Shown one piece after another: positions 18,025 to 52,710 of a stretch of 54,887 nt of DNA (positions within the stretch are counted from its first letter, which is position 1; each line of letters begins with the position of its first letter). The position numbers were made by a program, and so were the translations under genes. Below the pieces are notes generated by a model, which did not search any database, was not told the DNA's origin, and worked only from the letters and a program-made list of their open reading frames with translations. This DNA is from Celeribacter persicus (lineage in GTDB: Bacteria; Pseudomonadota; Alphaproteobacteria; Rhodobacterales; Rhodobacteraceae). Location of the stretch: positions 1-54,887 of the forward strand of contig NZ_QAOH01000019.1 of the NCBI RefSeq assembly GCF_003050785.1. The letters run 5' to 3'.

Positions 18025-18040
18025 CGATAATATATTATTG
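18025..18040. promoter_or_regulatory. Shared palindromic operator, site A
   Basis: CGATAATATATTATTG, preceded by TA. It matches the perfect palindrome of site D (52695) at 14 of 16 positions. It lies 20 bp before the start of the 178-residue gene at 18060, overlapping where its promoter should be. Confidence 0.65.
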
Positions 18041-18059
18041 AATGGTCGAGGGTGGGCAC

Positions 18060-18596
18060 ATGGTGGCGAGACTGGGAAAAGCTCCGTGGTTCGAGAGCTT
18101 TGATGTAGACGCCGAGGTTGAAGAGCTTCTTGCTCATATCCAGCGTTGCACCGGATTTGCGCTGCCTGAACGACAGCGTGATGTCATCATGACCCATGCA
18201 AGGGCAAAGCTCGACAGGACAAGGCATGCATATCTGGAGGCCAAGGCGGCGGGAAAGCCGGTGTCCACATCGCGCCGCGCCTATCTGACCGACCTTCAGG
18301 ACACGATCTTTATGGCGATCCCGGAAGAGAACCTCGCGCGGATGCCCCTGAGCGATCAGGTTCTCAACGATCCATCATTTTACGCGGACGCCATGCACTA
18401 TGCCGCCGCGATCAGCGAGGATGAGCTCTTCATGGCGCTGTCCTCTTCGCTGAAGGACATGACCGTTCAAGACGCCCAGGCCTTTGTCTCAAAGCTCTGG
18501 CACGGCGCGATTGACGACAATGCCCGCAAATATGCCGAAGCGTTGAAGCGCCCCGAGCGTGAAATCATGCCGCTGGGGCCTGGGAACACCGTGTAA
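18060..18596 (+). CDS. Unknown 178-residue protein behind operator site A
   Basis: A soluble, mostly helical protein with no family I recognise. The N-terminus WFESFDVDAEVEELLAHIQR is acidic. The middle (ERQRDVIMTHARAKLDRTRH) is amphipathic, and the C-terminal half has repeated acidic and alanine-rich helices (SFYADAMHYAAAISEDELFM). ATG 18060 is preferred because GAGGG lies 7 nt upstream; ATG 18042 would overlap the region next to the operator. Sharing an operator with the transfer genes suggests a role in conjugation control or entry, which is inference only. Confidence 0.65.
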   Translation: MVARLGKAPWFESFDVDAEVEELLAHIQRCTGFALPERQRDVIMTHARAKLDRTRHAYLEAKAAGKPVSTSRRAYLTDLQDTIFMAIPEENLARMPLSDQVLNDPSFYADAMHYAAAISEDELFMALSSSLKDMTVQDAQAFVSKLWHGAIDDNARKYAEALKRPEREIMPLGPGNTV

Positions 18597-18672
18597 GATC
18601 GGAGCCATTCTCTTGGCTTGAGCCCTACCGAGTTTGGCCGCCGCGAACCCCCTTTCCCGGAGGTGGCACCCT

Positions 18673-19326
18673 GTGCAGCGCGCGAAAGCCGTTGAAGGCG
18701 CTGTGGGGACGACTACTGTCGCCAACATGATGAACCGGGATCATATGCGCGTCTTCTTCCGGCGCACCGCGGCGCTTGCCGCCTTTGTCGCGCTGCTCTG
18801 GGCGGTTCAGGTTGTCAATTGGATCACCGGCTACGGCCTGAACCCGGCCTTCGGCCTGATCCCCAGGCACGGCAGCGGGTTAGATGGTGTCATCGCTATG
18901 CCCCTCCTGCATGGGAGCTTCTCGCACCTGATGGCCAATACGCCGCCGCTCCTGGTGATGGGTGGGCTGCTGGTGGCAACAACCACGCGAGGCTTGCTGT
19001 CGGTGAATGCCGTGGTGATCGGCCTCGGCGGCGCTCTTGTCTGGCTGTTCGGAAGCTCCGCCATCCATATCGGAGCGTCAGGGCTGGTCTTCGGCTGGTT
19101 CGGCTTCCTCATCGCGCGCGGTCTTGTGGATCGCTCCCCGATCACGCTGGGCGCGGCACTGGTGGTCGGTGTCCTCTATGGCTCTATTCTCTGGGGCGTT
19201 CTTCCGGGCCAACCCGGCGTGTCGTGGGAGGCGCATCTCTTCGGCGCTATCGCGGGCGCGGGCGCTGCGTTCCTAATCCGGACGCATGTCCATGCGCCGC
19301 GCCTCGGCAGCGTCGATCTGGACTGA
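18673..19326 (+). CDS. Rhomboid-family intramembrane serine protease
   Basis: A 217-residue inner-membrane protein. The family marks are [10 protein letters not shown] (the HxxxxHxxxN motif), GASGLVFGW with the catalytic Ser, and SWEAHLFG with the catalytic His near the end. About six hydrophobic helices are visible. Rhomboids cleave membrane-protein helices inside the bilayer; no substrate is evident. GTG 18673 is chosen for GGAGGT at 18659-18664, 8 nt before; ATG 18727 is the alternative. It is convergent with ietS. Its placement between a regulon gene and the IetAS pair suggests cargo. Confidence 0.82.
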
Positions 19327-19460
19327 AGCCGTACACTCGGCCGATTCCGGCCGTTCGATGAGCGCAAAGTTCGCCGCAGCGCGGCTTGCTCGAAGCTGAC
19401 GTTTGTTAGTCCGAAGATTACCGATAGACGCGCAAAAATTGCTAGAAAATGTCGGGGTCT

Positions 19461-25493: not shown

Positions 25494-25555
25494 GGCCCTC
25501 CTTGACCCTGCCTGTCCGCCCTGTCGGTGGGGTTTGCGCCCGCCCGCGGTTCCGT

Positions 25556-25575: not shown

Positions 25576-25724
25576 CCAGAGCCTCGGGCGGGGCTGGCGG
25601 ACCGGACCCCTAGGACAGGTGTCGCCCGGTGGTGAGGGCGGCAGAGCCGCGTCCCTGCGGGCCGCGGGCAAAGCGGACACCAAGGCTGCCTGAGCCTGAA
25701 TGCGACGTAAGTATATAATTGACA

Positions 25725-25740
25725 GCTTGGTATATTATCG
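25725..25740. promoter_or_regulatory. Shared palindromic operator, site B (half-site)
   Basis: GCTTGGTATATTATCG, followed by TA. The right ten bases equal the right part of the site D palindrome and the left half is degenerate. TTGACA (25719-25724) directly abuts it, so the site would overlap the promoter of mobC-relaxase-virD4. Confidence 0.55.
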
Positions 25741-25796
25741 TAAGGTAGGGGCAGCCTTGGTGGAAGGTGGCAGGAAATAGGGGGTCTTTCTTCCGC

Positions 25797-26378
25797 ATGT
25801 CCCGAACGAAACGCCTGACAGAGATGGAGAAGATGCAGATCGTCCGCGAGGCCGCGGAGGGTGTGTCGACGACCGATCTGGCGACGCAGTTCGGGGTGAC
25901 GGCACGGGCCGTGCGATACATCTTGAAAGCTGACGCCGAGCGCGAGGCAGATGCAGCGATCCCGGTCTCAGCGGTCAGTGTGAAGGTCACCGCTGCAGAG
26001 CTCGCAGCATTCGACGAGGTGTTGGCGAAGGCCGGGATCGAGAGCCGGGCCGAGGGGCTGCGGCGGCTCATCCAGGCGGCAGGCGGGGTGTTCGTTCCGG
26101 ACGCGCAGATGGCGACTGAGATGGCACGCTACAGGGCCTCTCTGCACGAGGTCGGCAATGGCGTCGCGCAGATCGCCAAGCAGATGACGCAGGCCAACCG
26201 GCAGGGGCAGGGCGCCAGCGATCAGTTCTCCGAACTGAGGCTAACCCAGATGCGCGGGTTGGCGCGGTTCATCCTCGATTCCGCCGACGAGATCGATCTG
26301 CTCCTGCGCCGCCGTCGGGACGCGATGCAGCTGCAGGCTACGGCCGCGCTGAGGGAGTTTGCCCATGCGGCTGAATGA
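25797..26378 (+). CDS. MobC-like relaxosome accessory protein with N-terminal helix-turn-helix
   Basis: A 193-residue protein. Residues ~5-45 read as a homeodomain-like/recombinase-type HTH (EKMQIVREAAEGVSTTDLAT, then FGVTARAVRYILK). Residues ~60-105 form a ribbon-helix-helix (VSVKVTAAELAAFDEVLAKA) typical of MobC. The C-terminal part EVGNGVAQIAKQMTQANRQG is the MobC helix that assists the relaxase. It should bind oriT and recruit the relaxase, and the extra HTH could let it regulate its own operon. ATG 25797 is used; GTG 25767 is an alternative. It overlaps the relaxase start by 14 bp. Confidence 0.78.
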   Translation: MSRTKRLTEMEKMQIVREAAEGVSTTDLATQFGVTARAVRYILKADAEREADAAIPVSAVSVKVTAAELAAFDEVLAKAGIESRAEGLRRLIQAAGGVFVPDAQMATEMARYRASLHEVGNGVAQIAKQMTQANRQGQGASDQFSELRLTQMRGLARFILDSADEIDLLLRRRRDAMQLQATAALREFAHAAE

Positions 26379-28698
26379 TGCTGTCGATGCTGTCACCGGC
26401 GAGGTCTTCCGGGACGGCTGGAGCCGCATCCGGGGCTCGATGCAGGGGCTGCATGTCGCCAAGCAGAGCCAGCTTGTGCGCGCGGCAGCGGGGCATCGGC
26501 CAGCGGTTTTCAAGGCGATCCGGGGCGGGGGTACGCATACCAAATCGCAGCTGATGAACCAGCTCGATTACCTCACAACCAAGTCTACCCATATCGTGGA
26601 CAGCAGTGGGTTCCTAGATGGAAAGGCGAAGCTCGAGGCGGGCGACATCAAGGATCTGACCGAGCGCTTCGCCAAGCGGTGGGATGCGGGCTTCAAGCCC
26701 AAGCTGGGCCAGACGACCCATATGCTCATGTCCTTCCCCGTCGGCACGCGCGGCGAGGATGTGCGCGACATCGCGACGGATGTGGCGGAACGGTTCTTCC
26801 AGACCGACGCGGGGCATTTCGACTACATCATCGCGGTGCATGAGGACCGGGATCACCCGCATGCGCATCTGGTGCTGAACCGTCGCGCGCAAGAAGGCGA
26901 GTTCTTTTTCTTGGGGCGGAACCACCGCTTCAACTATGACGACTTCCGCCTCGCCATGGTCGAGGAGGCGGAGAAGTATGGTGTGCGCCTGGAGGCCACG
27001 CGGCGTGTGGATCGCGGGGTTGTGCATTACCCCGCCCGGACCAGCGAGGTCTACGCCGCGAAAGAAGAGGGTCGCGCGCCCCGCGAGCGCGAACGAGTGG
27101 GGCAGGACCTGGCGCGGACGCTGGCGGAGATCGCCAACACCAGAACTGTCTACCACTCGCTTGCTGCGGAGGCTTCGCGCGAGGCCCGCGAGGATATTGC
27201 CACAGCCCTCTTTCGCGCGGGCGAGGTCTTGGCGCATGGCGGGCAGGTGGACCGAACAGGAGATGTGTATATGGCAGAGGATCAAAGTTTCGAGGATCTA
27301 AGAAGCCTCTATGCGGAGAAGCTCGCGCGGGTACAGGGCATGATCGCCGAGAAGGCGGACGCGGAACGCCCCCTGCTGGAAAAACGCCTCATCGAGATCC
27401 AAACGCAGGTCCAGCACATGCAGCCTCTCGGTTTGCGATCATCCACGCTATCAGACGCCCCCTCGGAGGGTGGGATCTATTCCGAGGCGAACATCGACAC
27501 CAGTCAGCTGGACCGTCTGGCCGAGACGGACTTGCGGTCGCGCATAGACACTGCCCTGCGCGGCACCGGGATCAGCACAGCGGAAGTGGTCGCCCGGATC
27601 GAGACCGGGGCCTCGAATGCCGCGCTTGAACATCAATGGATCGCCGATGATCTCTCCAAGGTGGCCGAGGCGCGGGACCTGAACCTCGAGCGTCGCGCTG
27701 ATCTGGAACAGGCGCGCGACATTCTCAACGATGTCCATGTCGAGCTTGGCACGCTGCTGGAACGGGATAACGTGCTGCGCCGGGACGGTGTCGTGGAGGA
27801 GGACGCGGTCAGCGAGCGGTTCCACTATCACGAGGACGCGGTGCGGGAGATGGAAGGGACAATCCGTCATGAGATGCGCGCCGAGGGTTTGACAACGCAG
27901 GAGATCGAGGACCGGGACTGGGAGGTGGCCTCAAAGGCGGAGCGCCGGATCGAAACAGAGCAGCGCGCGTATCTCGAGGTACATCCGGAGCTGCTCGCAC
28001 GTCCTGGCGATGTGATCGACCGGTCCGAGCCCTACAGGGAGACCATCACCGACGCGGCCCGCGCCAGCGAGATCACCCGCGAGGTCGACCGGATCATGGA
28101 GGCACGCGACCTCCGCACGCCTGTTGCAGATGCGGTCGCGGATGACGTCTCGGAGCGCTATCCGGACATGCCGTCCCACCTCGCCCGCGGGCTCGGCGCG
28201 ACCTATGCGGCCGTTGTGGAGATACGCGACACGGAGGCCATCAATCAGGTCCGCCGCGAAACCGAGTTGCGCGACGGGATTGGGGTTGGCACGCGCGAGG
28301 AGACCCTCGCGACAGGGGATGAAACTGCACCGCAGTTTGACCGGTCCGACCGCCTCGCAGGCGAGATTGCGCGCGTCCTGGACCATGAGCGGGCGGGAGA
28401 GTTGTCCGCGCCCTTCGAGACCGAGGCGGAGCGGGACGCCTTCCGCGAGGAGATCGCGCGGGTGCTGGATGACCGCCAATTGGGCCGCCTCACATCCGGC
28501 GATGCCGATGCGCTGGACAAGGTACTCGAGGACCGCCTCGACCGGCTCTATGTCGCCAAGGTCTATCTGCAATCGGATGCAGCGACGGCCAACACGGAGG
28601 CCTTGCGCCAGGTGGTCGATGATCTCGCCGACGCTGAGTATGAAAAACAGCGCGCGACAGACGTGGATGGCGAGACCGAGCGGGGACAGGTCCATTGA
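26365..28698 (+). CDS. VirD2-like (MOBP-type) relaxase
   Basis: A 777-residue relaxase. QLMNQLDYLTTK supplies the candidate nucleophile Tyr near residue 70. HFDYIIAVHEDRDHPHAHLV gives the metal site, with His159, His164 and the HxH pair at 166/168. It should nick oriT, stay attached to the 5' end and be exported through VirD4. Residues ~240-777 are long charged helices, probably coiled-coil, ending in an acidic tail that may carry the secretion signal. GAGGGAG at 26351-26357 marks ATG 26365. Longer than VirD2 (~450), as is common in this plasmid group. Confidence 0.87.
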   Translation: MRLNDAVDAVTGEVFRDGWSRIRGSMQGLHVAKQSQLVRAAAGHRPAVFKAIRGGGTHTKSQLMNQLDYLTTKSTHIVDSSGFLDGKAKLEAGDIKDLTERFAKRWDAGFKPKLGQTTHMLMSFPVGTRGEDVRDIATDVAERFFQTDAGHFDYIIAVHEDRDHPHAHLVLNRRAQEGEFFFLGRNHRFNYDDFRLAMVEEAEKYGVRLEATRRVDRGVVHYPARTSEVYAAKEEGRAPRERERVGQDLARTLAEIANTRTVYHSLAAEASREAREDIATALFRAGEVLAHGGQVDRTGDVYMAEDQSFEDLRSLYAEKLARVQGMIAEKADAERPLLEKRLIEIQTQVQHMQPLGLRSSTLSDAPSEGGIYSEANIDTSQLDRLAETDLRSRIDTALRGTGISTAEVVARIETGASNAALEHQWIADDLSKVAEARDLNLERRADLEQARDILNDVHVELGTLLERDNVLRRDGVVEEDAVSERFHYHEDAVREMEGTIRHEMRAEGLTTQEIEDRDWEVASKAERRIETEQRAYLEVHPELLARPGDVIDRSEPYRETITDAARASEITREVDRIMEARDLRTPVADAVADDVSERYPDMPSHLARGLGATYAAVVEIRDTEAINQVRRETELRDGIGVGTREETLATGDETAPQFDRSDRLAGEIARVLDHERAGELSAPFETEAERDAFREEIARVLDDRQLGRLTSGDADALDKVLEDRLDRLYVAKVYLQSDAATANTEALRQVVDDLADAEYEKQRATDVDGETERGQVH

Positions 28699-40178: not shown

Positions 40179-40190
40179 CGGGGATCAGCC

Positions 40191-40795: not shown

Positions 40796-41778
40796 TGGGA
40801 AGCTCCGATCTCATTGGTGCCGGGGAGGTAGAATTCGGTGATGCCGCGTTTGCCATCATGGCGACCGGCCTGGATGATTACGTCGATGGAGTTCTCGATG
40901 TACTGGATCATGTCGGCATAGGTCATCGGGATCTCGGTCTTGAGTGCGGCGATGGCCAGACGCTGCACGGCAAGTTGCGGGGTTTCTGCGTGCAGCGTGG
41001 TCATTGAGCCGCCATGGCCAGTGTTGATCGCCTCGAGGAAGGTCATGGCTTCCTTGCCGCGCACCTCGCCCAGGATGATCCGGTCGGGGCGCATGCGCAA
41101 CGTTGCGGTGAGCAGCACATCGGCGGTCTGGAACTCCGCATCGCGATTGGCGATGAGGGTCACGGCATTGGGCTGGGTCGGCAGAAGCTCGGCGGCTTCC
41201 TCGATGGTGACGATGCGTTCCTCGGATGGCACGTGCGAGAGGATCTTGCGTGCAGCCACGGTCTTGCCGGTGGAGGTGCCGCCAGAGACGATCATGTTAA
41301 GCTTGTTGTCGACGCAAAAGGCCAGCGCATCGTCGATCACGCCCGCGGCCACCACTTCGCGCAGTTCGTGGGTTTTCTCGAGGCGGAGTTCTTCAAGCTT
41401 GCGTTCCTTGCCAAAAAGGAAATCAAGCGCAATCCCGTCAAGCGGCAGGCTTGAGAAGAACCGAAGGCTGATCGACATGGCCGAGAGCACGGCAGGCGGG
41501 GTGATGACCTGTGCGCGGATCGGGCGCCCCTTGTAGGTGATCGAGACCGAGACGATCGGGCGGTCCTTGCTCATCGTTGTGTTGGCGGAAGAGGCGATCT
41601 GGTTGCCGAGGTCCTTCACTTCTGTTGCGGTCAACGCCTGGTCCAGCCTCCGCATGAAGTGATCGCCCTGGAATTCGCCCCAGCAGGTGCCATCAGGGTT
41701 GATGCAGATCTCGATGACATCGTCGCGAGCGGCGGCGTCGATCCGGTCGAGCGAGGTTTCGAGATAGCTCAGCGACAT
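40792..41778 (-). CDS. virB11: VirB11 ATPase
   Basis: A 328-residue hexameric traffic ATPase. The N-terminal domain (~1-150) has VIEICINPDG. Walker A GGTSTGKT lies at 166-173, the Asp box IVTIEEAAEL follows, then RMRPDRIILGEVRGKEAM and GHGGSMTTLHAETP, which carries the His box. It switches the channel between pilus assembly and DNA export at the inner membrane. ATG 41778 is used; the frame extends 21 codons into virB10 without a start signal. It lies 4 bp after virB10. Confidence 0.93.
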   Translation of the reverse strand: MSLSYLETSLDRIDAAARDDVIEICINPDGTCWGEFQGDHFMRRLDQALTATEVKDLGNQIASSANTTMSKDRPIVSVSITYKGRPIRAQVITPPAVLSAMSISLRFFSSLPLDGIALDFLFGKERKLEELRLEKTHELREVVAAGVIDDALAFCVDNKLNMIVSGGTSTGKTVAARKILSHVPSEERIVTIEEAAELLPTQPNAVTLIANRDAEFQTADVLLTATLRMRPDRIILGEVRGKEAMTFLEAINTGHGGSMTTLHAETPQLAVQRLAIAALKTEIPMTYADMIQYIENSIDVIIQAGRHDGKRGITEFYLPGTNEIGASQ

Positions 41779-41782
41779 GGGC

Positions 41783-43162: not shown

Positions 43163-43845
43163 GAGGCGGCCTCCGCGGGCGGGATCGCCTCGATGCAGAC
43201 CACCTCTTCGCCAAGTCGCAGGACCCATTGGCGGTTTACGCCGCTGACGCGGATCACACCGTCCTCAGGGGTTTGCGTGTTGACCGTGCGTTCACGGCCG
43301 CCCGCGTAGCGGAAGATCGCTGGCACAGGTGCGTTTCTTGGAAAGGCGAAATACGTGAACGTCCCGTCATCCCAGATGCGGGTTGGCGTGAACTCGGTCC
43401 GCGCGCTGGCGCCGTAATTGTAGTTCGGCGCTTGGGCGGCGATGGCCCGGATCGGGCGCGCAGCGTCGTCAGGGTAGCGGAACTGCACAACGTAGAAGGT
43501 CGGGCTGCGGACCTCCTCGACGTTGAAATAGTAGCTTCGCCTGTTCGTGTAGACCGTCACATTGGTATGGACACCGCGCGCGACGGGCTTGATTGCAAAG
43601 GCCTGACCACCGGGGACGCCATCGATCTCGAAGCCTTCCGTGTCGCCCGCGATGATCGAGCGGATGCTTTCACCCTCACCGAATTCGACCGTGGTCACAT
43701 GGGTGAGCGACACGCTGAGACGGTAGACCTGACCCTCCTGGTAGGTGGCCAAGCGCACTCGGCTGTCGTTGGGACCGCCACGCGGGATGGTTTCGGCAGA
43801 GGCGAGGCCGGGCAACAGGGCAATGACAAAAATAAGCGATCTCAT
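43159..43845 (-). CDS. virB9: VirB9 outer-membrane complex protein
   Basis: A 228-residue periplasmic protein. The signal peptide RSLIFVIALLPGLASA is followed by an N-terminal domain (ETIPRGGPNDSRVRLATY) and a C-terminal VirB9/CagX domain (TPTRIWDDGTFTYFAFPRN, then PEDGVIRVSGVNRQWVLRLG). It forms the outer-membrane ring with VirB7 and VirB10. ATG 43845 is preferred over TTG codons just upstream. It is coupled to virB10 by a 4-bp overlap. Confidence 0.92.
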   Translation of the reverse strand: MRSLIFVIALLPGLASAETIPRGGPNDSRVRLATYQEGQVYRLSVSLTHVTTVEFGEGESIRSIIAGDTEGFEIDGVPGGQAFAIKPVARGVHTNVTVYTNRRSYYFNVEEVRSPTFYVVQFRYPDDAARPIRAIAAQAPNYNYGASARTEFTPTRIWDDGTFTYFAFPRNAPVPAIFRYAGGRERTVNTQTPEDGVIRVSGVNRQWVLRLGEEVVCIEAIPPAEAAS

Positions 43846-43856
43846 ATACAACAACG

Positions 43857-44510
43857 TCAGTTCTCCAATCTGTCGGAGCGGATGGAATATTCGCGCACGG
43901 TGAAGCCGAAGGGGTTGGTCCAGACCTCGTCGATGGAGCGGCGGGTCTCCGGGCGGAACTCGAAGAGAAGCGTCGCAGTGAAGAGGCCGGTCTGGGTGCC
44001 GTTAATGGACGTCAGGCGCTTGCGCAGGCGGACCGTCGCGCGGTTGGTTCCGATCCGGTTGATGCTGAGGATTTCCACGTCGAGCCTGGCGTTGGGGCCA
44101 TAGACGGTCGGCGGGTAATTCTCGTTGGCGCTGTTCCAGATCTGGCGCAACCCGCTCTCGGCAGCTCCGTCCGAGCGGCGCAGGACGCTGCGGATGCGCA
44201 GGTCGTTGTCGAGCTGGTTATAGACCTCGCGGTCGGTCACGTAGCGGAAGACCTCCGCCTCGATGATCGCCTGGTTGGCTGTGACAGACGTCGCGCCCAC
44301 CGAAGCCTCGGGCAGGGCAAAGCCGGTGGCGGGATCATAGGGCACGACCACAGGCGGCGGATCGACATCGAGGATCGCGACAGCCGCCGCGCTCAGGCAT
44401 CCGAGAATGCCGAAGATGAGCCCGATGAGCCCAAGGCGCTGCCAGAGGCGTTCACGGCGCAGAGCACCATAGACCAGCTCTTCTTCGATGATTTCCTGTT
44501 CACTCGCCAC
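43857..44510 (-). CDS. virB8: VirB8 assembly factor
   Basis: A 217-residue bitopic inner-membrane protein. One N-terminal helix (LGLIGLIFGILGCLSAAAVAI, ~27-47) leads into the periplasmic NTF2-like VirB8 domain. That domain has YVTDREVYNQLDNDLRIRSV, NENYPPTVYG and WTNPFGFTVREYSIR. VirB8 nucleates channel assembly and binds VirB10. It sits 16 bp after virB5. The length matches the family. Confidence 0.92.
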   Translation of the reverse strand: MASEQEIIEEELVYGALRRERLWQRLGLIGLIFGILGCLSAAAVAILDVDPPPVVVPYDPATGFALPEASVGATSVTANQAIIEAEVFRYVTDREVYNQLDNDLRIRSVLRRSDGAAESGLRQIWNSANENYPPTVYGPNARLDVEILSINRIGTNRATVRLRKRLTSINGTQTGLFTATLLFEFRPETRRSIDEVWTNPFGFTVREYSIRSDRLEN

Positions 44511-44525
44511 GCGTCATGCCTCAAA

Positions 44526-45338
44526 TCAGTCTGCGCGCAGGTCCGGCAGCGTAAAGTCCATGAAGCGCTGCTCTTCGGCGATGGTGGCGGCATCGATCAC
44601 GCCGCCGGTGCCATCGCCCACGGTCTGGATGGCTTCGAGTTGCCACATGGCGACCAGTGCAATGGCGAGCTCCGCGGTCACGCGCGTGTTGAGATCGATG
44701 CTTTCCTTTAGTTCGTCCATGTCGTCGATGAGCCCGACAAGGCGGTCGACCCGCTCGAGCGATTGGCCGGCATCCTCATAGCTGTTCTGGGCTGCCGCCG
44801 AGACAAGGGCACCGGTGGTGGCCTGCGTCGCCACGCGGTTGGCCCCGGGATTGCCGCTCGTGGCCATTTCCGAGAGGGTGTCATCGTCAAATCCGAGATC
44901 GGCCAGCACCCGATCCATCTGGGTTTCGATTTCGCCCGCGCCGGAGCCCGAGAGGCCCGAGAAATCTCCCGTCTTGATCGCCTCAATCGTGGCGAGGATA
45001 TCGCCGAACTCTTGGTCGAGTAGGCCATTGAGTTCGTCTTCCATCTCGGTGCGGATGATTTCTGGAAGCTCGGCGAGGCGGGTGAGGGCCTCGTAGGTTC
45101 TTTGCAGCTCCGCGAGTTGGTCCGTGAGAAGGCCGAGCTGTTCGCGGAGCTGCGTCAGCTGCTCGTTTTGCAAGATCTCGTCCTCGATCATCTGCCGCAG
45201 CTGCTGGATGTTTTGCGCGATGTTCTGGGTATCGACGACGGGCACGCCTTGCGCGAGGACGGGGGATAGGGCGCCAAGATGCAGACCAACCCCAAGTGTC
45301 GTGGCCAAAGCTGTCCTCAAGAGCAGATGTCCCATCAT
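44526..45338 (-). CDS. virB5: VirB5-like minor pilus protein
   Basis: A 270-residue exported protein with a signal peptide (residues 1 to ~30, ending VLA). The mature part is almost entirely helical with Gln/Leu-rich coiled-coil (NIAQNIQQLRQMIEDEILQN). The C-terminus holds ESIDLNTRVTAELAIALVAM and ends EEQRFMDFTLPDLRAD, a tail shared with the transglycosylase encoded just before it. VirB5 proteins sit at the pilus tip and aid adhesion. ATG 45338 overlaps the preceding stop (ATGA) and has AGGGAG upstream. Confidence 0.85.
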   Translation of the reverse strand: MMGHLLLRTALATTLGVGLHLGALSPVLAQGVPVVDTQNIAQNIQQLRQMIEDEILQNEQLTQLREQLGLLTDQLAELQRTYEALTRLAELPEIIRTEMEDELNGLLDQEFGDILATIEAIKTGDFSGLSGSGAGEIETQMDRVLADLGFDDDTLSEMATSGNPGANRVATQATTGALVSAAAQNSYEDAGQSLERVDRLVGLIDDMDELKESIDLNTRVTAELAIALVAMWQLEAIQTVGDGTGGVIDAATIAEEQRFMDFTLPDLRAD

Positions 45339-46489
45339 TCAATCTCCCTGATCGTAAAATCCATGAACGCGCCTTCGGCCATGCGGGCGCTGGCCTGGGC
45401 CAGCTCTTCGGCGGAGAGCACGCGGGTGCGGGCGGCCTGAAGCCGGATGCGGGCGGCCACGAGACGCACGAGTTCGGCGCGGGCATAAGTGTTGAGCGCA
45501 ACGCTCTCCTGCACATCCTCGGTCTCGGAAATCCGTTCGACGATATCCGCAATACGTAGGGCGGCTTGCCTGATCGCGGCGGGTGAGTTGTTGCCATAGA
45601 AGGCCGCGCCGTGCCCAGTGAGCGAGAGGTTGGCATTGGCCAGAAGCGCGGGGTCGATCGTGCCAAGCGCTTCGATCCCGCCGATACGGGTCAAATAGAG
45701 GTTATAGCGTTCGGGGATCACCTGGACGTAGTGCTGGGTCTCGCGAAAGGGTGGCACGCCGCCATACTCGAAAACCCGGCCGGGTCCCGCGTTATAGGCC
45801 GCGAGCGCATTGATGATATTGCCGTCGAAGGTGTTGAGCTGTGTCGCGAGATAGCGTGCACCGCCATGCACCTGCAGGTAGGGGCTGTCATAGTATTCCG
45901 GATTGATGCCCAGATCGCTGGCGGTACCGGGCATGATCTGGGTGAGGCCAAAGGCGCCGACGGGAGAGCGTGCACCGATGGTGAAACGGCTTTCCTGCCA
46001 GATCAGCGCCTGTAGGAGTGCGCGCCATTGGACCGGGGAGAGGCCCGCGCGGCCAACGCCGGCAAAGCCGCTGGTCTCCTGAGCCACGCGGATAATGAGC
46101 TGCTCGATGTTTTCCGCCGCATCCCCGAACATCTGCGCACCGCCGGGATTGGGGTCGATGTCGGCATTGCCATAGACCGCCTCGACTGACCGGGCCGGAT
46201 CCCCGCTGCCGCTTTCCAGCCCCGAGACCATAGCCGGCAAGCCCTGACCGCCGAAGCTGGTCTGGGCATCGAGGATGCGTTGCAGGGTTTCCAGCTGCTC
46301 CCGTTCGATCTCGGCAATGAGTTCGCGCACGGCAAGCTTGTCGGCCTGAACGGCCAAGTCAGCCTCGCGATCGCCAGTCTCGACGATGTCACGCGCGGTC
46401 AGCCCACTGTCATTGGTCGGCACGCCTTGAGACAAAGCGAGACCGGGCAGCAGGCAAAGGGCCAGGATATGAGGCAGGCTAGACTTCAA
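45335..46489 (-). CDS. Lytic transglycosylase fused to a VirB5-like tail
   Basis: A 384-residue exported protein. The signal peptide is SSLPHILALCLLPGLALS. A lytic transglycosylase domain (~150-280) has the catalytic Glu in LIWQESRF, then GAFGLTQIMPGTASDLGI and NALAAYNAGPGRV. The last ~80 residues (ESVALNTYARAELVRLVAAR, then EGAFMDFTIREIE) align with the VirB5 C-terminus of the next gene. It should open peptidoglycan for channel assembly and may dock at the pilus through its VirB5-like tail. TTG 46489 is chosen for GGAGGG upstream and the signal peptide. Confidence 0.8.
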   Translation of the reverse strand: MKSSLPHILALCLLPGLALSQGVPTNDSGLTARDIVETGDREADLAVQADKLAVRELIAEIEREQLETLQRILDAQTSFGGQGLPAMVSGLESGSGDPARSVEAVYGNADIDPNPGGAQMFGDAAENIEQLIIRVAQETSGFAGVGRAGLSPVQWRALLQALIWQESRFTIGARSPVGAFGLTQIMPGTASDLGINPEYYDSPYLQVHGGARYLATQLNTFDGNIINALAAYNAGPGRVFEYGGVPPFRETQHYVQVIPERYNLYLTRIGGIEALGTIDPALLANANLSLTGHGAAFYGNNSPAAIRQAALRIADIVERISETEDVQESVALNTYARAELVRLVAARIRLQAARTRVLSAEELAQASARMAEGAFMDFTIREIE

Positions 46490-46646
46490 TGTCGCCCTCC
46501 GGTGCGCCAAGGGGCGTGAAGGTGCAATCAGGCGAGATGGCTGTCGTGGAGGCGAGGAAGGTGAAGCAATTGGCCTGCGGTTCCTGGTACTGGGCACAGG
46601 AGGCCAACGCACCGAGCGCGGCAACGAACATCAAAATACGGGTCAT
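46479..46646 (-). CDS. virB7: VirB7-like lipoprotein
   Basis: A 55-residue lipoprotein: TRILMFVAALGALASCAQYQ, with lipobox LASC and lipidated Cys16, then two more Cys in the mature part (NCFTF and DCTFTP). Position in the operon, size and lipobox fit VirB7, which anchors the VirB9 ring in the outer membrane. GGAGG lies upstream of ATG 46646, which overlaps the virB4 stop by 4 bp. The end overlaps the transglycosylase start by 11 bp. Confidence 0.72.
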   Translation of the reverse strand: MTRILMFVAALGALASCAQYQEPQANCFTFLASTTAISPDCTFTPLGAPEGDIEV

Positions 46647-49018
46647 GAAAGCCTCCAGAAATCAGGGCGGTCGCGGTAATCGGCGCCGACAAGCGCTTCG
46701 CCCTTTTCCATGCCGCCAAGGATGGTGAGATTGGGTCCAAGCGCGCTCAGATCGGCATCGACGACGATCGAGCCCTGATCGTCGCGGATCAGCGCCAAGC
46801 GGCTGTTGCTGCCCGTGTTGAGAAGGACATCGAGCTCCTTCTCCGTGAGGTTCAGCATGGCGTAGTCCGCTGGCTGCGCGCGGATATTGGGGAGCAGGAT
46901 CTGCGTCGGCACCGCCTCGATGATGGTCTTGCCGGTCCGGGTGCGCTCGAGCTGGCTTGCGTATTGCGTCATCATCACCGCGACCGTGTTCTGTTTGCGC
47001 GCTGTCACCAGCCAGTTCGACAGCCGCTCGGCGAAATACGCGTTATCGAGGGCCTTCCAGGCCTCGTCGATCACGATGATGGTGGGGCGGCGGTCCTCGA
47101 TTTCGCGCTCGACCCGGCGGAAGAGATAGGACAGGACCGCCATCCGTTCCTTGTCGGCCTCGCTGTCGAGAATGCCGGTCAGATCGAAGCCCACCACATC
47201 GCCCTTGAGCGAGAACGTGTCCTCGAGGCTCTGCCCGAAGATCCAGCCATAGCGGCCGTCCTCGGTCCATTCGAGCAGGCGCTGGTGCAGATCGCCGCCA
47301 TCATCGGTGGACACAAAAAGCGATGCGAAATCCCGCCAGTTCCGCAGGGCCGGGTTTGTGGCCTGCGCGTTCTGGCGCACGACTTCCTGGATGCGATTGG
47401 TCTGGGCAGGAGTGAGCGGCTTGTCGGCGCGGTAGAGCAGGGTGACAAGCCAGTCCGAGAGCCAGGCGGTGCCGCGCGCATCGGTCTCGGTCCAGAGCGG
47501 GTTGAGGCCCGTGGGCTGACCGGCGTTCAGGGACGCGTAGCGCCCGCCATTGGCGCGGACCGCCATCTCCATACCAAGACGGTAATCGAAGACGAAGATC
47601 CGCGCGCCTGCGCGACGGGCTTGCGTCATCAGAAAGGCGGACAGCACCGATTTGCCCGACCCGGGCCGACCCATGATCAGGGTATGCCCGCTGGTCGGTT
47701 CTTTGTCCGGGCTGCCCTGCTCGTGGTAGGAAAACCGGTAGGCGCTCTGCTCCGGCGTGGGCAAATAAGTGACGACCCGGCCCCAAGGGGTAAGTGCTGC
47801 GGGTTTGCCGAGCTGCGTCCGGTGGAAGGCCGCAAAATCCGCGAAGTTGCGATTGGTGACGGCGCTCGCGCGGACACGCTTGGGCTGGTTGCCGGGATGC
47901 TGGCTGAGGTAATGGGCCTTTGCGGCGACCCGCTCGCCGATCATTTTCACGCCCTCGGTCGCGGCGGCATTCACGATCTCGGCGCTGAGGGTTTGCAGCT
48001 CTTCGAGCGTGTCGCAAAAGAGCGTCACGACCATGTGATGCTCGCCGAAGCTTTGGCGCTTGGCCTCGAGATCATCGGCGGCGATGTCGAGGGCTTCCAG
48101 GAGCGAGAGGGCTGCGTCCTGGCTGGCCTGCATCTGGCGCTTTTGCCGCTTGATGCGGCCCGCCATGAGGTTCGAATTGATCGGCGTGAAGGAGTGCGTC
48201 ACGATCATGTCGACCGGCAGGTTCAGCATGTCGAACATGGTGCAGGAGGTGCCTTCCGAGTATTCCCCGATGGTGAAACTCTTGCCGTAGCGATGCCCCA
48301 CGACGCCTTCGGAAAGCTCGAAATGATCGCCGTGAAACGTCACTCGCGTGTTGGCGACGTTGAAGGACAGGAAGCCATAGGTGTTCGCCGGATAGAGCGG
48401 CAGCTCCTGGCCAGTGTTGAGGGCGCCCAGAAAGCCGATCAACTCACCGCTCTTGGCCGAAAGCACGCGCGGGTTCAACTCCGTCAGGCCCGACAGGAAC
48501 ACGCTCACGGCCTCGCCCAGACGACGCAAACGTTTCTCCGTCGCTTCCTTCAGCCGGTCCGGCGCGCTGCGGCTCAGGAACGGCAGGAGGCTTTTCGGGG
48601 GCGGACGGTGAATGACGGTGAGCGTCAGCGTCTTGTCGCGCAGCCCGCTGGTCTCGAGTTTTGCGCGCCAGCGCCGGTCCACCTCGCCTGCGAAGCTGTC
48701 CTCACGGATCGGGTCGAGATCAGGTTTGATGGCCTTGGAGACCTTGTGGACGTAATAGCTGAATTCCGGCCCGAGCTGCGCGACGATGCGGGCAAAAAGC
48801 GCCGTCACCTTGTCGAGATAGGCATCGTCGGTCGTGTAGCTGTTGATCCCCTCGAGCCGAATGCAGCGGAAGAGTTCGTTCACCCGGGTCCGCACGGTCT
48901 GGTCGTCGACGAGGCTTACATAGGGCAGCATATGCGCGAGGCGGGTCTCGCGCGCATACCAGTCTGGCGTCATTGTGCGGGCATCGAGCGCAGCACCACG
49001 GGCGTCATCACGGGGCAT
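46643..49018 (-). CDS. virB4: VirB4 ATPase
   Basis: A 791-residue ATPase. The N-terminal VirB4/CagE domain (~1-400) has LFRCIRLEGINSYTTDDAYL. The C-terminal RecA-like domain has Walker A GRPGSGKS (~450-457), IFVFDYRLGMEM, Walker B RPTIIVIDEAWKALDN and VAVMMTQYASQLERTRTG. It powers pilin extraction and substrate transfer at the inner membrane. ATG 49018 with GGGG 6 nt upstream is chosen; ATG 49033 is possible. It overlaps the virB3 end by 11 bp. Confidence 0.93.
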   Translation of the reverse strand: MPRDDARGAALDARTMTPDWYARETRLAHMLPYVSLVDDQTVRTRVNELFRCIRLEGINSYTTDDAYLDKVTALFARIVAQLGPEFSYYVHKVSKAIKPDLDPIREDSFAGEVDRRWRAKLETSGLRDKTLTLTVIHRPPPKSLLPFLSRSAPDRLKEATEKRLRRLGEAVSVFLSGLTELNPRVLSAKSGELIGFLGALNTGQELPLYPANTYGFLSFNVANTRVTFHGDHFELSEGVVGHRYGKSFTIGEYSEGTSCTMFDMLNLPVDMIVTHSFTPINSNLMAGRIKRQKRQMQASQDAALSLLEALDIAADDLEAKRQSFGEHHMVVTLFCDTLEELQTLSAEIVNAAATEGVKMIGERVAAKAHYLSQHPGNQPKRVRASAVTNRNFADFAAFHRTQLGKPAALTPWGRVVTYLPTPEQSAYRFSYHEQGSPDKEPTSGHTLIMGRPGSGKSVLSAFLMTQARRAGARIFVFDYRLGMEMAVRANGGRYASLNAGQPTGLNPLWTETDARGTAWLSDWLVTLLYRADKPLTPAQTNRIQEVVRQNAQATNPALRNWRDFASLFVSTDDGGDLHQRLLEWTEDGRYGWIFGQSLEDTFSLKGDVVGFDLTGILDSEADKERMAVLSYLFRRVEREIEDRRPTIIVIDEAWKALDNAYFAERLSNWLVTARKQNTVAVMMTQYASQLERTRTGKTIIEAVPTQILLPNIRAQPADYAMLNLTEKELDVLLNTGSNSRLALIRDDQGSIVVDADLSALGPNLTILGGMEKGEALVGADYRDRPDFWRLS

Positions 49019-49286
49019 AGCTGTCCCCGCCATGGATGGACCTGTTGCGCGTGGGCGGTGTCTCCTGCAGGGCCGTCATCATCACGTCGATGAAACGCGG
49101 GTCCCAATCTGCGGCCTTCCACAGCACCGGATAGAGCAGGGCGGCGAAACCCAGTACCGCGATGTGCTGGACCCAGACGAACAAGAGCACAGAGCCGAAG
49201 AGCCAGACCATCGCGTACATGATGGGCAGGCCCAGAAGCTTCGGCGGGCGCACGAGGCCCAGAAAGAGGGGCGAGCGTTCAGCCAC
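49008..49286 (-). CDS. virB3: VirB3 inner-membrane protein
   Basis: A 92-residue protein. AERSPLFLGLVRPPKLLGLP is the VirB3 start, followed by a hydrophobic hairpin (MYAMVWLFGSVLLFVWVQHI and AVLGFAALLYPVL) and a short tail. VirB3 works with VirB4 at the base of the channel. GTG 49286 is chosen because upstream codons overlap virB2; the overlap at this start is 8 bp. Confidence 0.88.
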   Translation of the reverse strand: MAERSPLFLGLVRPPKLLGLPIMYAMVWLFGSVLLFVWVQHIAVLGFAALLYPVLWKAADWDPRFIDVMMTALQETPPTRNRSIHGGDSYAP

Positions 49287-49572
49287 CGGCGAAGACCGCG
49301 GCAACAATGGTGGGAGCGGCGGCAACACCAGCGATGCCCACGAGGACCCAAAGCGCTTGGCGCAGGTCGATGATGTTGAAGAACCAGCTCAAGAAAACGC
49401 CGAGGACCGCGAGTGTGGCGATGACCACACCAAGAGGGCCGGTCAGCGCATCGACAATGCCCTGCAACAAGCTCTGGATCGGGGAGAGATCGATGCTTTG
49501 TGCAAGGGCGGGCTCGGCAATGAACAGGAATAGCGCCAGCGAGGCGACAAAGAGGTTTGAAATCTGTCTCAT
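49279..49572 (-). CDS. virB2: VirB2 major pilin
   Basis: A 97-residue pilin precursor. The long signal sequence (NLFVASLALFLFIAEPALAQ) is cleaved near AQS. The mature protein has two hydrophobic helices (GPLGVVIATLAVLGVFLSWF and LWVLVGIAGVAAAPTIVAAV), the TrbC/VirB2 plan. It builds the conjugative pilus. The start overlaps the preceding transglycosylase stop (ATGA). Confidence 0.9.
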   Translation of the reverse strand: MRQISNLFVASLALFLFIAEPALAQSIDLSPIQSLLQGIVDALTGPLGVVIATLAVLGVFLSWFFNIIDLRQALWVLVGIAGVAAAPTIVAAVFAGG

Positions 49573-50279
49573 GAATTTGATCCTTCCAATCGGGCCACGA
49601 CAGCCATGACGCGGGCCACGTGGTTCTGGGTTTCTCGGTAAGGGGGAATGCCACCGTGTTGGCGCACGGCGTCCGGCCCCGCGTTGTAGGCCGCCAGCGC
49701 CAGATGCGGATCGCCGAAGGTTTCCAGCATCATCGCGAGGTAGCGGGCGGAGCCGTCGAGGTTCTGCAGCGGATCACGCGGGTCGACGCCCAGATCACGC
49801 GCAGTTGCTGGCATCAATTGACCAAGGCCAATGGCACCCGCACTTGAAATCGCATCCTGCCGGTAGGCGCTCTCAACCTCGATATTGGCGCGGTAGAGAG
49901 CCAGCCAATCCCTCATGGAGAGCTCTGCGCGCCGCAGGCCCGGATGGCCGGCATAGCGCAGGGCCGTTGCCTCGATGCCTAAGAGAACGTCTGCGCGGGG
50001 CAGGGGTGCTGGCTGGGCGAGTGCCGCAAACCTCAGCGCGTCAGGTTCGGAAGCTGCTTCAGTCTCGCCAAGAATGGCCAAACCATCGGACGCCGATCCC
50101 TGACCAATGCCGTCATTGTAGTTTCGAGCAAAGCTGCTTTGGGAGCGTGACGGGATCAGGGAGCCGTCGCTCTCCATGACCAGGACCATTTGAGCTGAGG
50201 CAGGTGCTGCGACCAGCCAGAGACAGACGAGGTTAGCTGCCAGCGCCCTTGTCTGATGGGGCTTTGTCTGGCGGCGCAA
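49569..50279 (-). CDS. virB1: VirB1-type lytic transglycosylase
   Basis: An exported protein of ~236 residues. The signal-like stretch LAANLVCLWLVAAPASAQ is followed by a linker and a C-terminal SLT domain: IEVESAYRQ with the catalytic Glu, AIGLGQLMPATARDLGVDPR and LALAAYNAGPDAVRQHGG. It clears peptidoglycan for T4SS assembly and is first of the classical VirB order. The start is uncertain: TTG 50279 limits overlap with the previous gene to 47 bp, while ATG 50324 gives a longer N-terminus. It is the second transglycosylase in this operon. Confidence 0.82.
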   Translation of the reverse strand: MRRQTKPHQTRALAANLVCLWLVAAPASAQMVLVMESDGSLIPSRSQSSFARNYNDGIGQGSASDGLAILGETEAASEPDALRFAALAQPAPLPRADVLLGIEATALRYAGHPGLRRAELSMRDWLALYRANIEVESAYRQDAISSAGAIGLGQLMPATARDLGVDPRDPLQNLDGSARYLAMMLETFGDPHLALAAYNAGPDAVRQHGGIPPYRETQNHVARVMAVVARLEGSNS

Positions 50280-50613
50280 GTTTGTGCGTACGGCTTGTCC
50301 CCGCCTCAAGCGGCAGGTCGACATGCGCAAAACCAAGGCCAATGAAGAAAGACACCACGCCGGAGATCGTCTTGAACTCGCGGATCTTGATATCGTTGTA
50401 GGTCGTCCGCGTGCGGGCGGTGACCAGGAGCTTTTCCTCGCCATCATCAGAGACAATGCGCATGATCCAGACCCCGTAATAGCTGGGGCCTTTCTTATGT
50501 GCCGACTCCTGGCACAGGATTTCTGCGCTATAGCCGCTTTCCACGAGCTCGCGGAACCTGGCTTCCGTAACCACATTTGGTGCTTCGATGTCCCAGTTCA
50601 TGGCCCGGCTCAC
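50233..50613 (-). CDS. Unknown first gene of the virB operon, 126 residues
   Basis: A soluble or weakly membrane-associated protein. EAPNVVTEARFRELVESGYS, then YYGVWIMRIVSDDGEEKLLV and SGVVSFFIGLGFAHVDLPLE. No family is recognised. GTG 50613 is preferred because GGAG lies 6 nt before; ATG 50601 lacks a site. It is the first gene behind operator site C, so it may be a regulator or early factor of transfer. The end overlaps the virB1 start. Confidence 0.65.
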   Translation of the reverse strand: MSRAMNWDIEAPNVVTEARFRELVESGYSAEILCQESAHKKGPSYYGVWIMRIVSDDGEEKLLVTARTRTTYNDIKIREFKTISGVVSFFIGLGFAHVDLPLEAGTSRTHKLAPPDKAPSDKGAGS

Positions 50614-50664: not shown

Positions 50665-50680
50665 CGATAGTATATTATCA
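50665..50680. promoter_or_regulatory. Shared palindromic operator, site C
   Basis: CGATAGTATATTATCA, preceded by TA. It matches the reverse complement of site D at 15 of 16 positions. It lies 52 bp upstream of the virB operon (minus) and 105 bp upstream of the plus-strand gene at 50770. On the minus strand it contains TATACT, a good -10-like box. Confidence 0.7.
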
Positions 50681-50769: not shown

Positions 50770-51063
50770 TTGAGAAACCCGAGGTTGATATGCCTGCTCC
50801 CATTGCAAGCTCTGGTCCTTCTAATCTGCGTTTCCGGGCCGGTTTTGGCGGAATCCTGCTTCGCCCCGGCCCGTCCTTTCCTGCCAAGCGATTCGCAGGC
50901 GGCGCGGGACTATGCGGACATCATCCGTGGCGATTTCGAAGACTACATCCAGGATATCCAGAGCTACTTCCGTTGCCTCGACAGCGAACGCGCCCGCGCT
51001 TTCGAAGAAGCGCGCGAAGTCAGCGAGGACTATGGCCGATTTCTGCAATTGGTAGGGGATTGA
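50770..51063 (+). CDS. Small exported protein divergent from the virB operon, 97 residues
   Basis: The signal peptide ICLLPLQALVLLICVSGPVL is cleaved before ESCFAP. The mature ~68 residues are acidic and helical (ARDYADIIRGDFEDYIQDIQ, then ERARAFEEAREVSEDYGRFL) with two Cys that could pair. No family is recognised. AAGGAG at 50755-50760 sets TTG 50770; GTG 50743 lies before the ribosome site and is rejected. Its divergent position suggests a periplasmic transfer accessory, possibly entry exclusion. Confidence 0.68.
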   Translation: MRNPRLICLLPLQALVLLICVSGPVLAESCFAPARPFLPSDSQAARDYADIIRGDFEDYIQDIQSYFRCLDSERARAFEEAREVSEDYGRFLQLVGD

Positions 51064-51127: not shown

Positions 51128-51144
51128 TATCTACTTTTTAGATA
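51128..51144. promoter_or_regulatory. Palindrome TATCTA-N5-TAGATA upstream of the XRE gene
   Basis: A perfect 6-bp inverted repeat with 5-bp spacing, 44 bp before the regulator start. This is a typical place and form for XRE autoregulation. Confidence 0.5.
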
Positions 51145-51165: not shown

Positions 51166-51186
51166 CGTCACAAAAGGTATGTGACG
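51166..51186. promoter_or_regulatory. Inverted repeat CGTCAC-N9-GTGACG abutting the XRE start
   Basis: Ends one base before GTG 51188 and spans the ribosome site AAAAGG, so it could be a second operator or an RNA hairpin that hides the start. Confidence 0.45.
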
Positions 51187-51187
51187 C

Positions 51188-51462: not shown

Positions 51463-51618
51463 GAACACGGGAACCCACTTTCCCGGTCTGATGATCATTT
51501 CCTCATCGAGGACCAGTTAGCCAACATCAAAGAAGCCCGGCGCGCGGTCGTAGTGAACGCTCTGCAACCCCACGCCGCAATTCGCAGCGCCGCAGTGCAG
51601 GAAGCCAGTAAACAGTGA
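51463..51618 (+). other. Startless open frame coupled to the next small gene
   Basis: From the stop at 51460 the frame reads EHGNPLSRSDDHFLIEDQLA, then NIKEARRAVVVNALQPHAAI and on to TGA 51616-51618, protein-like and helical. No ATG, GTG or TTG is in frame. Its stop overlaps the next start as GTGA, the usual sign of coupling. It may be a gene that lost its 5' end, or one using a rare start. Confidence 0.3.
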
Positions 51619-51842
51619 ACGAAGATAAGGGTGAGGGCGTCGCGATCGCCAATCTGATCGGGACCGATGGGTGCAGTGTTGTTGGTTGGGTTTATCGCTG
51701 GAGGACAGGCTCACATGCGGTGATGTGGGACGTCCAAGGGCCCCAGCCGGTATCGGAAACCCGGCCGGATATAAGTGACGAACAGAAGCAAGAAATCGAC
51801 TTCGATGCGCTGACGAGGATCGGAAGAAGCGACGACGGGTGA
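51615..51842 (+). CDS. Small hypothetical protein, 75 residues
   Basis: GTG 51615 overlaps the preceding open frame by 4 bp. The product has a beta-rich core (VAIANLIGTDGCSVVGWVYR, then GSHAVMWDVQGPQPV) and an acidic end. No family or motif is recognised, and the ribosome site is weak. Composition looks like a real protein, but support is modest. Confidence 0.42.
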   Translation: MNEDKGEGVAIANLIGTDGCSVVGWVYRWRTGSHAVMWDVQGPQPVSETRPDISDEQKQEIDFDALTRIGRSDDG

Positions 51843-51962
51843 ACAGAGCGAACCCGCGGTGTTTGCCTAAACGCCAAACAGCATGTGGACCGCGAAGCGT
51901 ATGCGGTGCGGTCGTGCAAGCCAAAGAAGCCGTCTTCCATGACAAATCTACGTAGCGGCAGG

Positions 51963-52658
51963 TCAGTAGTTCACCTGCTCGAACCCGTAGTTGCCGTCAT
52001 AGTCACGCCAATCGACGAAGACGGATCGGTGATAAATGCCAGGGCAATGCTCGCCCCAACGTTCAAGTCCCACATGGGCCTCGGGCAGGGCAGTTATCGA
52101 AGATCGCTGCCATGAGAAATCGCCTTGGGTCCCGTAGGTGCCGAGGACCACGGTCGCGCTTCGGTTACAATCCCCATCGCGCCCGGACTCGTGCTGTCGT
52201 GCATACCGTACATCGAAGACGCGGATGGACCGCACGAAATTGAACTCGGGACCGCTGATATCGATGTCCGCGCGATCCTGAACAAGCCGGAGTGCCTGGT
52301 CGGTGGGAACGAGATCATGGACTTGCAAGGATTGGAGCGGTCGACGGCTGTCCGTCTGGTAAAAGGCTTCAAAGATGCGGCCAGCGCTGTTTAATGGCCG
52401 ATCGCTCTCATAGGAAGCGCCCATGGGACACCGCCAGATCTGCAGCGGCGGTTCCACCGGCCAGGGCGTAATCCGCCGGATGAATTCGGCGCGCGCCCGG
52501 GCGCAAGGGACGGAAGCGGGCCAGCCGCCCGACAGACACAAGAGGATCGCGCAATCGATAGAGTAGGTCTGCGCGCGGGCGGGCATCGGCAGCGAAAGAC
52601 CTGTCACAGTTAGGGCAACTGCGACCGAGGCGGGGAGCTTATTGAATAGATGGCGCAT
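51963..52658 (-). CDS. Exported Cys-containing protein behind operator site D, 231 residues
   Basis: The signal peptide (SVAVALTVTGLSLPMPARAQ) is cleaved after ARA. The mature part starts TYSIDCAILLCLSGGWPASV and continues CARARAEFIRRITPWPVEPP, with paired Cys. The C-terminal half is beta-rich (SATVVLGTYGTQGDFSWQRS). I recall similar proteins near T4SS genes of Rhodobacterales, but no function. ATG 52658 has GAGGG 8 nt upstream and is preferred over the upstream TTG 52679. Its promoter region carries the most symmetrical operator copy, so it is probably co-regulated with transfer. Confidence 0.72.
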   Translation of the reverse strand: MRHLFNKLPASVAVALTVTGLSLPMPARAQTYSIDCAILLCLSGGWPASVPCARARAEFIRRITPWPVEPPLQIWRCPMGASYESDRPLNSAGRIFEAFYQTDSRRPLQSLQVHDLVPTDQALRLVQDRADIDISGPEFNFVRSIRVFDVRYARQHESGRDGDCNRSATVVLGTYGTQGDFSWQRSSITALPEAHVGLERWGEHCPGIYHRSVFVDWRDYDGNYGFEQVNY

Positions 52659-52694
52659 GCTGAGAACCCTCTGTGACAAGGCTCAGCATACATA

Positions 52695-52710
52695 CGATAA
52701 TATACTATCG
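52695..52710. promoter_or_regulatory. Shared palindromic operator, site D (best palindrome)
   Basis: CGATAATATACTATCG, preceded by TA: perfect apart from a G-A/T-C asymmetry at the two inner positions, and the reference copy for sites A to C. It lies 37 bp upstream of ATG 52658 on the minus strand. Confidence 0.7.

Follow-up and report, generated by a model that had tools for sequence, protein, structure and literature searches.

The window analysed here, the whole stretch of 54,887 nucleotides, is one complete contig (G000:C19, NZ_QAOH01000019.1) of the 4.3-Mb genome of Celeribacter persicus, which is assembled in 94 contigs. It contains a conjugation module of the MOBP/MPF_T class and of the Rhodobacterales type, in which the gene of a relaxosome accessory protein with a helix-turn-helix (HTH) domain, here HTH-MobC or simply MobC, is followed by those of the relaxase and the VirD4 coupling protein. 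The virB operon of the type IV secretion system (T4SS) is divergent from exp83, a small exported-type protein gene, and beyond it are found an XRE regulator gene and exp238, which codes for another exported-type protein. The window also holds the gene of a 178-aa protein and, next to it, one for a rhomboid protease. Relatives of the relaxase at 90% identity or more are present in 126 plasmid records, among them Octadecabacter, Pseudosulfitobacter, Sulfitobacter, Ruegeria, Dinoroseobacter and Phaeobacter. At a threshold of at least 60% identity the number rises to 155 of the 553 plasmid records having any match, from many marine genera, and VirB4 is found at 95% identity or more in 62 of the 5000 records retained. 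The subject of this work is a 16-bp palindromic element, CGATARTATAYTATCG, that recurs at the heads of several of these genes.

A sequence-only reading of the window had claimed that one 16-bp palindrome is shared by four promoters. All four sites exist at the positions given and lie upstream of genes, and three of them, starting at 18025 (site 1), 50665 (site A) and 52695 (site B), are strong, with at most one mismatch to CGATARTATAYTATCG, but the one at 25725 (site 2) is a non-palindromic half-site. Matches as good as the three strong ones were absent from 60 dinucleotide shuffles of the window, and with the fixed consensus at up to three mismatches there were 3 matches against a shuffled mean of 0.05. 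Site 2 has four mismatches to CGATARTATAYTATCG, a level at which the window contains 5 matches in total and the shuffles 1.75 on average; it is not significant by itself, but it is by its position. All four promoter regions (4/4) contain a match at up to four mismatches, the mean for shuffled regions, which were picked around the sites, being 0.03. The whole genome of this strain has no match at up to one mismatch besides the three strong sites (none with the reversed control), and a looser pattern, GATANTATANTATC, again at up to one mismatch, recovers the same three only, but here the reversed control gives 2.

Table 1 Features of the window discussed in the text, in order of position.
Feature	Position	Strand	Remark
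Operator site 1, CGATAATATATTATTG	18025..18040		upstream of the likelier start codon, 18060, by about 20 bp
Gene of the 178-aa protein of unknown function	18060..18596	+	optional regulon member
Rhomboid protease gene	18634..19326	+	downstream of the 178-aa gene; Pfam Rhomboid
Left arm of predicted oriT inverted repeat, CACCAAGGCTGCC	25678..25690
Upstream half-operator of the mobC promoter, CGTAAGTATATAATTG	25706..25721
-35-like TTGACA of the mobC promoter	25719..25724	+	read by eye, conserved; absent from strict scan
Site 2, half-operator GCTTGGTATATTATCG	25725..25740		fills 16-bp spacer between TTGACA and weak -10-like TAAGGT
Right arm of predicted oriT inverted repeat, GGCAGCCTTGGTG	25750..25762
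Predicted nick-region core, TGGCAGGAAATAG	25768..25780		5 bp after right arm
HTH-MobC, relaxosome accessory protein	25797..26378	+	proposed regulator
MOBP-type relaxase	26359..28698	+	Pfam Relaxase; related plasmids typed MOBP by PLSDB
VirD4 coupling protein	28695..30686	+
virB operon	39102..50576	-	VirB11, VirB10, VirB8, VirB5-like, VirB4, VirB3, VirB2, transglycosylases, others
Operator site A	50665..50680		between virB operon and divergent exp83
exp83 (name given here), small exported-type protein gene	50770..51063	+	signal peptide read by eye
Operator-like repeat TATCTACTTTTTAGATA	51128..51144		upstream of the XRE gene
XRE regulator, 85 aa	51188..51445	+	unlikely binder of the 16-mer
exp238 (name given here), exported-type protein, no assigned function	51963..52679	-	regulon member; signal peptide read by eye
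Operator site B, CGATAATATACTATCG	52695..52710		exp238 promoter

Outside this strain, six complete related plasmids adding up to 806 kb (two of D. shibae and those of Pseudosulfitobacter, Ruegeria, Paroceanicella and Phaeobacter) contain 15 matches at up to two mismatches and none to the reversed pattern, and all 15 are located at regulon heads, 15-90 bp before the genes: six between virB and exp83 (75-90 bp upstream), six before the exp238 homologue (15-17 bp, as aligned) and three before the 178-aa gene (20 bp). For site 1 of the window the corresponding distance, about 20 bp, is counted to the start codon at 18060, the likelier one and common to the homologues. The three plasmids without site 1 are the same three that lack the 178-aa gene. 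They keep the other sites, and the 178-aa protein (mean predicted local distance difference test score, pLDDT, of its structure model 66) was rejected as a required autoregulator. In the window exp238 is accompanied by an L,D-transpeptidase (YkuD) gene at 52783-53352, and L,D-transpeptidase genes are annotated nearby in a Phaeobacter plasmid too.

A second collection, the best 80 of 132 loci fetched from genome contigs by similarity to the XRE family, provided more copies of the region. Site B was not found within 4.5 kb downstream of the XRE gene in 19 of 73 loci; the gene can lie further off, and genes displaced 10-12 kb from virB still carry their sites. Over 61 sequences (52 distinct) conservation was 0.911 in the site B motif and 0.733 and 0.533 in its flanks; for site A such a footprint was uninformative since the region is conserved throughout (motif 0.956, left flank 0.972, right flank 0.914). 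Among 292 genomes of the order, 24 had a match at up to one mismatch and none a match to the reversed control. A T4SS-linked XRE gene was found in 20 of these 24 (one of them broken), MobC at 69% identity or more in 19 and a ParB-like protein in 19. Two of the 24 (G004 and G079) have a site that is not near any tested homologue, and in G100 a promoter of the exported-protein type was seen for which no homologue was found in its 20-kb stretch. At two mismatches whole-genome counts become noisy (23 matches versus 13 in the reversed control, in 20 chosen genomes), so weak sites count by position only. Plasmids with the motif have been typed as rep_cluster 160, 599, 601, 392/558, 613 and 558, that is, at least five replicon clusters.

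Neither of the outcomes that would tell against the sequence-only reading was found. The sites are not scattered at random inside genes, be it in the own genome, the 292 genomes or the six plasmids, and they are conserved in related plasmids, with site A at up to three mismatches in all 72 loci (72/72) that have sufficient upstream sequence. This confinement and conservation make it very likely that the 16-bp element is a conserved transfer operator defining a regulon that includes the genes at 18060 and 51963, and the earlier idea that DNA processing, channel synthesis and two uncharacterised genes form one programme is well supported by the same evidence. We found no report of this operator in the parts consulted of the open-licence literature searched, including PMC11481893, PMC4886583, PMC6473078, PMC5513947 and PMC13386836.

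The position of the sites relative to the promoters is consistent with such a role. On the minus strand site A fills the 17-bp spacer between TTGCGG and TAACTC of the putative virB promoter, and site B falls within the 17-bp spacer from TTGCGA to TATGCT of that of exp238, both pairs of hexamers being read by eye. These -35/-10 readings are backed by conservation and not by a strict promoter scan, which reported nothing at mobC or before the 178-aa gene and, at virB and exp238, only matches on the opposite (plus) strand. The overlap with promoter-like hexamers might suggest that the element is just a shared core-promoter feature, or else a partition site of the replicon, rather than an operator. 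We consider this very improbable. The element is a dyad placed differently relative to the hexamers, its sequence changes between systems while the layout stays (see below), and the same element occurs over the variety of replicon clusters mentioned above, when a RepABC/ParB partition site is expected on one replicon type together with a linked partition protein, a pattern that the motif does not show.

The mobC promoter has a different architecture. The half-sites GTATATAATTG (25711-25721) and GTATATTATCG (25730-25740) form a 19-bp direct repeat, so arranged that they flank the TTGACA read by eye and one of them fills the spacer, which places the operator within the putative promoter. The exact half-site, GTATATTATCGTAA, is kept in 29 of 36 mobC loci; each of the two exact half-sites is present in that same number of loci, and a looser pair in 33/36, while the bases just 5' of the second half-site vary among relatives. 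Furthermore, the promoter and both half-sites are enclosed by a perfect 13-bp inverted repeat followed by a nick-like core, TGGCAGGAAATAG, which we take to resemble the start of T-DNA borders. A core of this kind together with a perfect inverted repeat of at least 8 bp was found in 50 of 57 mobC loci, some of them stemming from one genome, with the gap of 5 bp in 41 and another gap in nine; the remaining 7/57 did not yield this combination of repeat and core. The arms vary from system to system, the layout recurs even in divergent ones, and an origin of transfer (oriT) is predicted from the sequence to adjoin the mobC gene. A near-perfect 20-bp palindrome, AGATTTGGGGACCCAAATCT, is also found close by at 25474-25493, within the open reading frame (ORF) 24584-25693.

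Two proteins encoded in the window had been put forward as binders of the sites, the XRE protein and HTH-MobC; our comparison disfavours the former and favours the latter. If the XRE protein bound the 16-bp sites and repressed the regulon, its gene should go along with them, and indeed it is linked to site A in 72/72 loci, although these had been fetched with an XRE query and the linkage is built in. The frequency of T4SS-linked XRE genes in the motif genomes and the weaker sites of plasmids without XRE also speak for it. However, the 16-mer is missing, at up to three mismatches, from seven XRE homologues (49-66% identity) whose fetched stretch shows no T4SS gene. They have instead another repeat of the type TATCT..AGATAA directly before their own start (in variant form in L130). 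The window has such a repeat, TATCTACTTTTTAGATA, before its XRE gene, and a loose form is present in 120 of 138 XRE upstream regions, duplicates included. Like repeats accompany homologues in unrelated contexts, down to ~48-50% identity, and are probably the operators of these XRE proteins themselves.

Site and XRE gene are not always inherited together either. Four T4SS plasmids (G153, G166, G194, G209) without XRE in the region keep the sites, and in their genomes XRE is either without any match or matched only remotely (32-38% identity) by proteins from other contigs. Of the sites tested in these plasmids, 9 of 9 persist with 2-3 mismatches, and when the region around each of them was shuffled 500 times, a match as good arose three times at most. 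The sites also remain in G189, where the XRE frame is broken. With another operator-like repeat before its gene and sites kept without it, we regard the XRE protein as an improbable binder of the 16-mer. The XRE slot of the four plasmids (loci L271-L274) is occupied by the gene of a 540-548 aa protein, whose relatives occur on numerous rhizobial plasmids and in part carry the annotation of membrane proteins, and by a second gene that is alpha/beta-hydrolase-like in the two of four scanned, weakly so in one. This pair resembles, in a comparison by description only, RcgA/RcgR of rhizobial plasmids, described as a transmembrane protein with HTH plus an alpha/beta hydrolase in the part of that account consulted (PMC9601222). 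Just before the XRE start of the window there is also a possible hairpin, GTCACA-AAAGGTA-TGTGAC (51167-51185), with a Shine-Dalgarno-like loop; several relatives seem, by eye, to retain a hairpin, though with other arms.

The binder might also be a third protein. It could belong to the conserved plasmid backbone, like the ParB-like protein encoded at 4750, be a regulator that has escaped annotation, or be a host factor acting, for example, downstream of quorum sensing. ParB-type proteins bind palindromes, and the ParB-like protein, which has an HTH_ParB domain, is encoded on 6/6 of the complete plasmids and in most of the motif genomes. In the case of a host factor, acyl-homoserine lactones, as quorum-sensing signals, are described to induce T4SS genes and raise their expression in D. 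shibae (PMC4886583, consulted in part). Against these candidates, G189, G271 and G277 have sites and no ParB-like match (few candidates were scored), the motif is spread over plasmids of several replicon clusters, and a host factor should have sites off plasmids, but the own genome has none elsewhere at up to one mismatch. The ParB-like protein is therefore an unlikely binder given those three genomes, and this third group as a whole seems rather unlikely to us, if less so than the XRE protein.

The alternative that we prefer is HTH-MobC, the only DNA-binding protein of the window that is also found in divergent systems, where the operators change in parallel. Its ORF (25767-26378) overlaps that of the relaxase (26359-28698), so that it is encoded directly upstream of a MOBP relaxase. 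The N-terminal HTH was recognized as Pfam HTH_23 in 24 of 25 relatives, and the mobilisation motif of the MobC clade, LxxuGxNlNQIAxxLN, appears as LNRVGNNVxQIAKRMN in the family consensus and, with deviations, as LHEVGNGVAQIAKQM in the window. Pfam MobC matches 14/25 members and not the protein of the window at an E value of 0.01. As to a ribbon-helix-helix domain, Pfam RHH_1 matches 2/25 members and NikA-like 7/25; the structure model contains no strand, and the PDB ribbon-helix-helix matches are weak (E 0.03 and above). MobC was also found in the site-bearing test genomes G153, G166, G194, G209, G189 and G277.

The distant systems (VirB4 65-74% and MobC 33-49% identical, with no XRE match in the stretches examined) preserve the same layout with other operators. 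Related forms of one operator are seen at both the mobC and the virB promoters, TTACAATAAT-like in G186 and G075, ACAAAACCG-like in G277:C3 and G102, and CAATATTATAATATTG-like in G228:C1, G045 and G126. Even within the window's own group, G152 has TACGATAATATAGCATTGACCG at virB and TACGATAATATTGCATTGACCG at mobC. When mobC and virB promoters were scored by the best 14-mer that they share (17 systems in five groups), the average was 20.9 within and 18.0 between groups. Permuting the labels 20,000 times never reproduced the observed value, and among 120 ways of pairing the groups the true one came out best; however, the groups had been set after seeing the sequences and their members are related. 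In most of the groups compared, the sequences at mobC and virB have changed in parallel. In group T2 the virB and exported-protein promoters share another element, and in another group of T4SS elements (L284 and L309) one around CAACATTARYGATAGCAAG is common to the virB and exported-protein promoters and not clearly to mobC.

Together with this grouping, several other results weigh against HTH-MobC. System by system, the own virB promoter ranked first in only 9/17, and its rank in others was 7 for the window, 7 for G003, 17 for G259, 10 for G058 and 13 for G166C8; in group T4 no shared operator was seen, and the score of group T2 rests on matches that do not resemble operators. The draft genomes G271 and G064 have sites and neither mobC nor relaxase was found in them, these and the other absences coming from searches with few candidates scored per genome (4 ParB-like, up to 11 MobC). 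Matches at up to one mismatch were never seen with MobC in the absence of a T4SS-linked XRE and, as sites are weaker in plasmids without XRE, the latter may matter. The recognition helix of the HTH is RAVRY or RAIQY among plasmids sharing the same operator. The hhalign comparison of the protein with RA3 MobC (106 columns, E 0.00012) reaches a probability of only 55%, its AlphaFold2 model is of moderate quality (mean pLDDT 75.8, predicted template modelling score 0.35), and the top Foldseek matches include the repressors ArdK and KorA and others too, all at E >0.1, which makes them a lead only. A structural second look at the model gave mostly helical bundles and was uninformative. Finally, in the consulted part of the RA3 study the MobC site near oriT was dispensable for transfer, and the RA3 operator is GC-rich versus the AT-rich ones found here (PMC4175270).

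With all this taken into account, the likelier case is that HTH-MobC is what binds the operator. The best overall explanation, one that we judge somewhat more probable than all others together, is the operator of a plasmid-borne transfer regulon bound, most likely, by a dimer of HTH-MobC acting as a repressor. The operator would be located within, or overlap, the core promoters of mobC-relaxase-virD4, of virB and its divergent partner, of exp238 and, where present, of the pair formed by the 178-aa and rhomboid genes. At the oriT/mobC promoter a dimer would bind the direct half-sites, providing autoregulation and perhaps assisting relaxosome assembly, while at the other promoters it would bind the dyads and block RNA polymerase for as long as MobC is neither titrated nor displaced. 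We infer the binding, the repression and the coupling of oriT to promoter binding. A tentative possibility, which we would not call likely, is that HTH-MobC is bifunctional, at once relaxosome protein and master regulator. In this reading the half-sites in the predicted oriT loop would let assembly or departure of the relaxosome alter the amount of free MobC and so switch the channel genes, tying channel synthesis to DNA processing, in a circuit that would govern conjugation with system-specific operators across Rhodobacterales plasmids.

Parts of this arrangement have precedents. In RP4, TrbA/KorB-type regulators co-regulate the Tra and Trb operons, a similar case of one regulator over DNA-processing and channel operons, with a different regulator family. 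KorA and ArdK, unlike HTH-MobC, are not known to be relaxosome proteins. ArdK of R388 and the KorA family are, as proposed for HTH-MobC, small plasmid HTH repressors that control several promoters, and the sections consulted describe that ArdK represses five genes sharing a direct repeat and also binds an inverted repeat (PMC9723621), so one protein can use both site layouts, as needed here. The closest parallel is MobC of RA3 (IncU), an accessory protein encoded before a MOBP relaxase with an LxxuGxNlNQIA-type motif, and an autorepressor whose operator, an imperfect palindrome, is placed between -35 and -10 of the mobC promoter, in a region containing oriT and a wide inverted repeat (PMC4175270). 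The part of that account consulted mentions no target besides the mobC promoter, whereas here the protein carries an additional HTH at its N-terminus, and further copies of the element are found at virB, the exported-protein gene and the unknown gene. What is novel is a single element spread over DNA-processing, channel and two unknown genes, plus the fused HTH. The Roseobacter conjugation literature, in the parts examined, names no operator or direct regulator. Reporters of virB promoters exist for D. shibae and P. inhibens plasmids (PMC11481893, consulted in part), which makes an immediate test of the model possible.

For a module present in many marine genera, the analysis defines an operator, lists its target genes, predicts an oriT and proposes a candidate for the regulator. 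It also assigns two proteins of unknown function to the transfer programme. DNA cutting and the building of the transfer channel are probably controlled together by one regulator, and the best candidate for it, HTH-MobC, is a protein that helps to cut the DNA.

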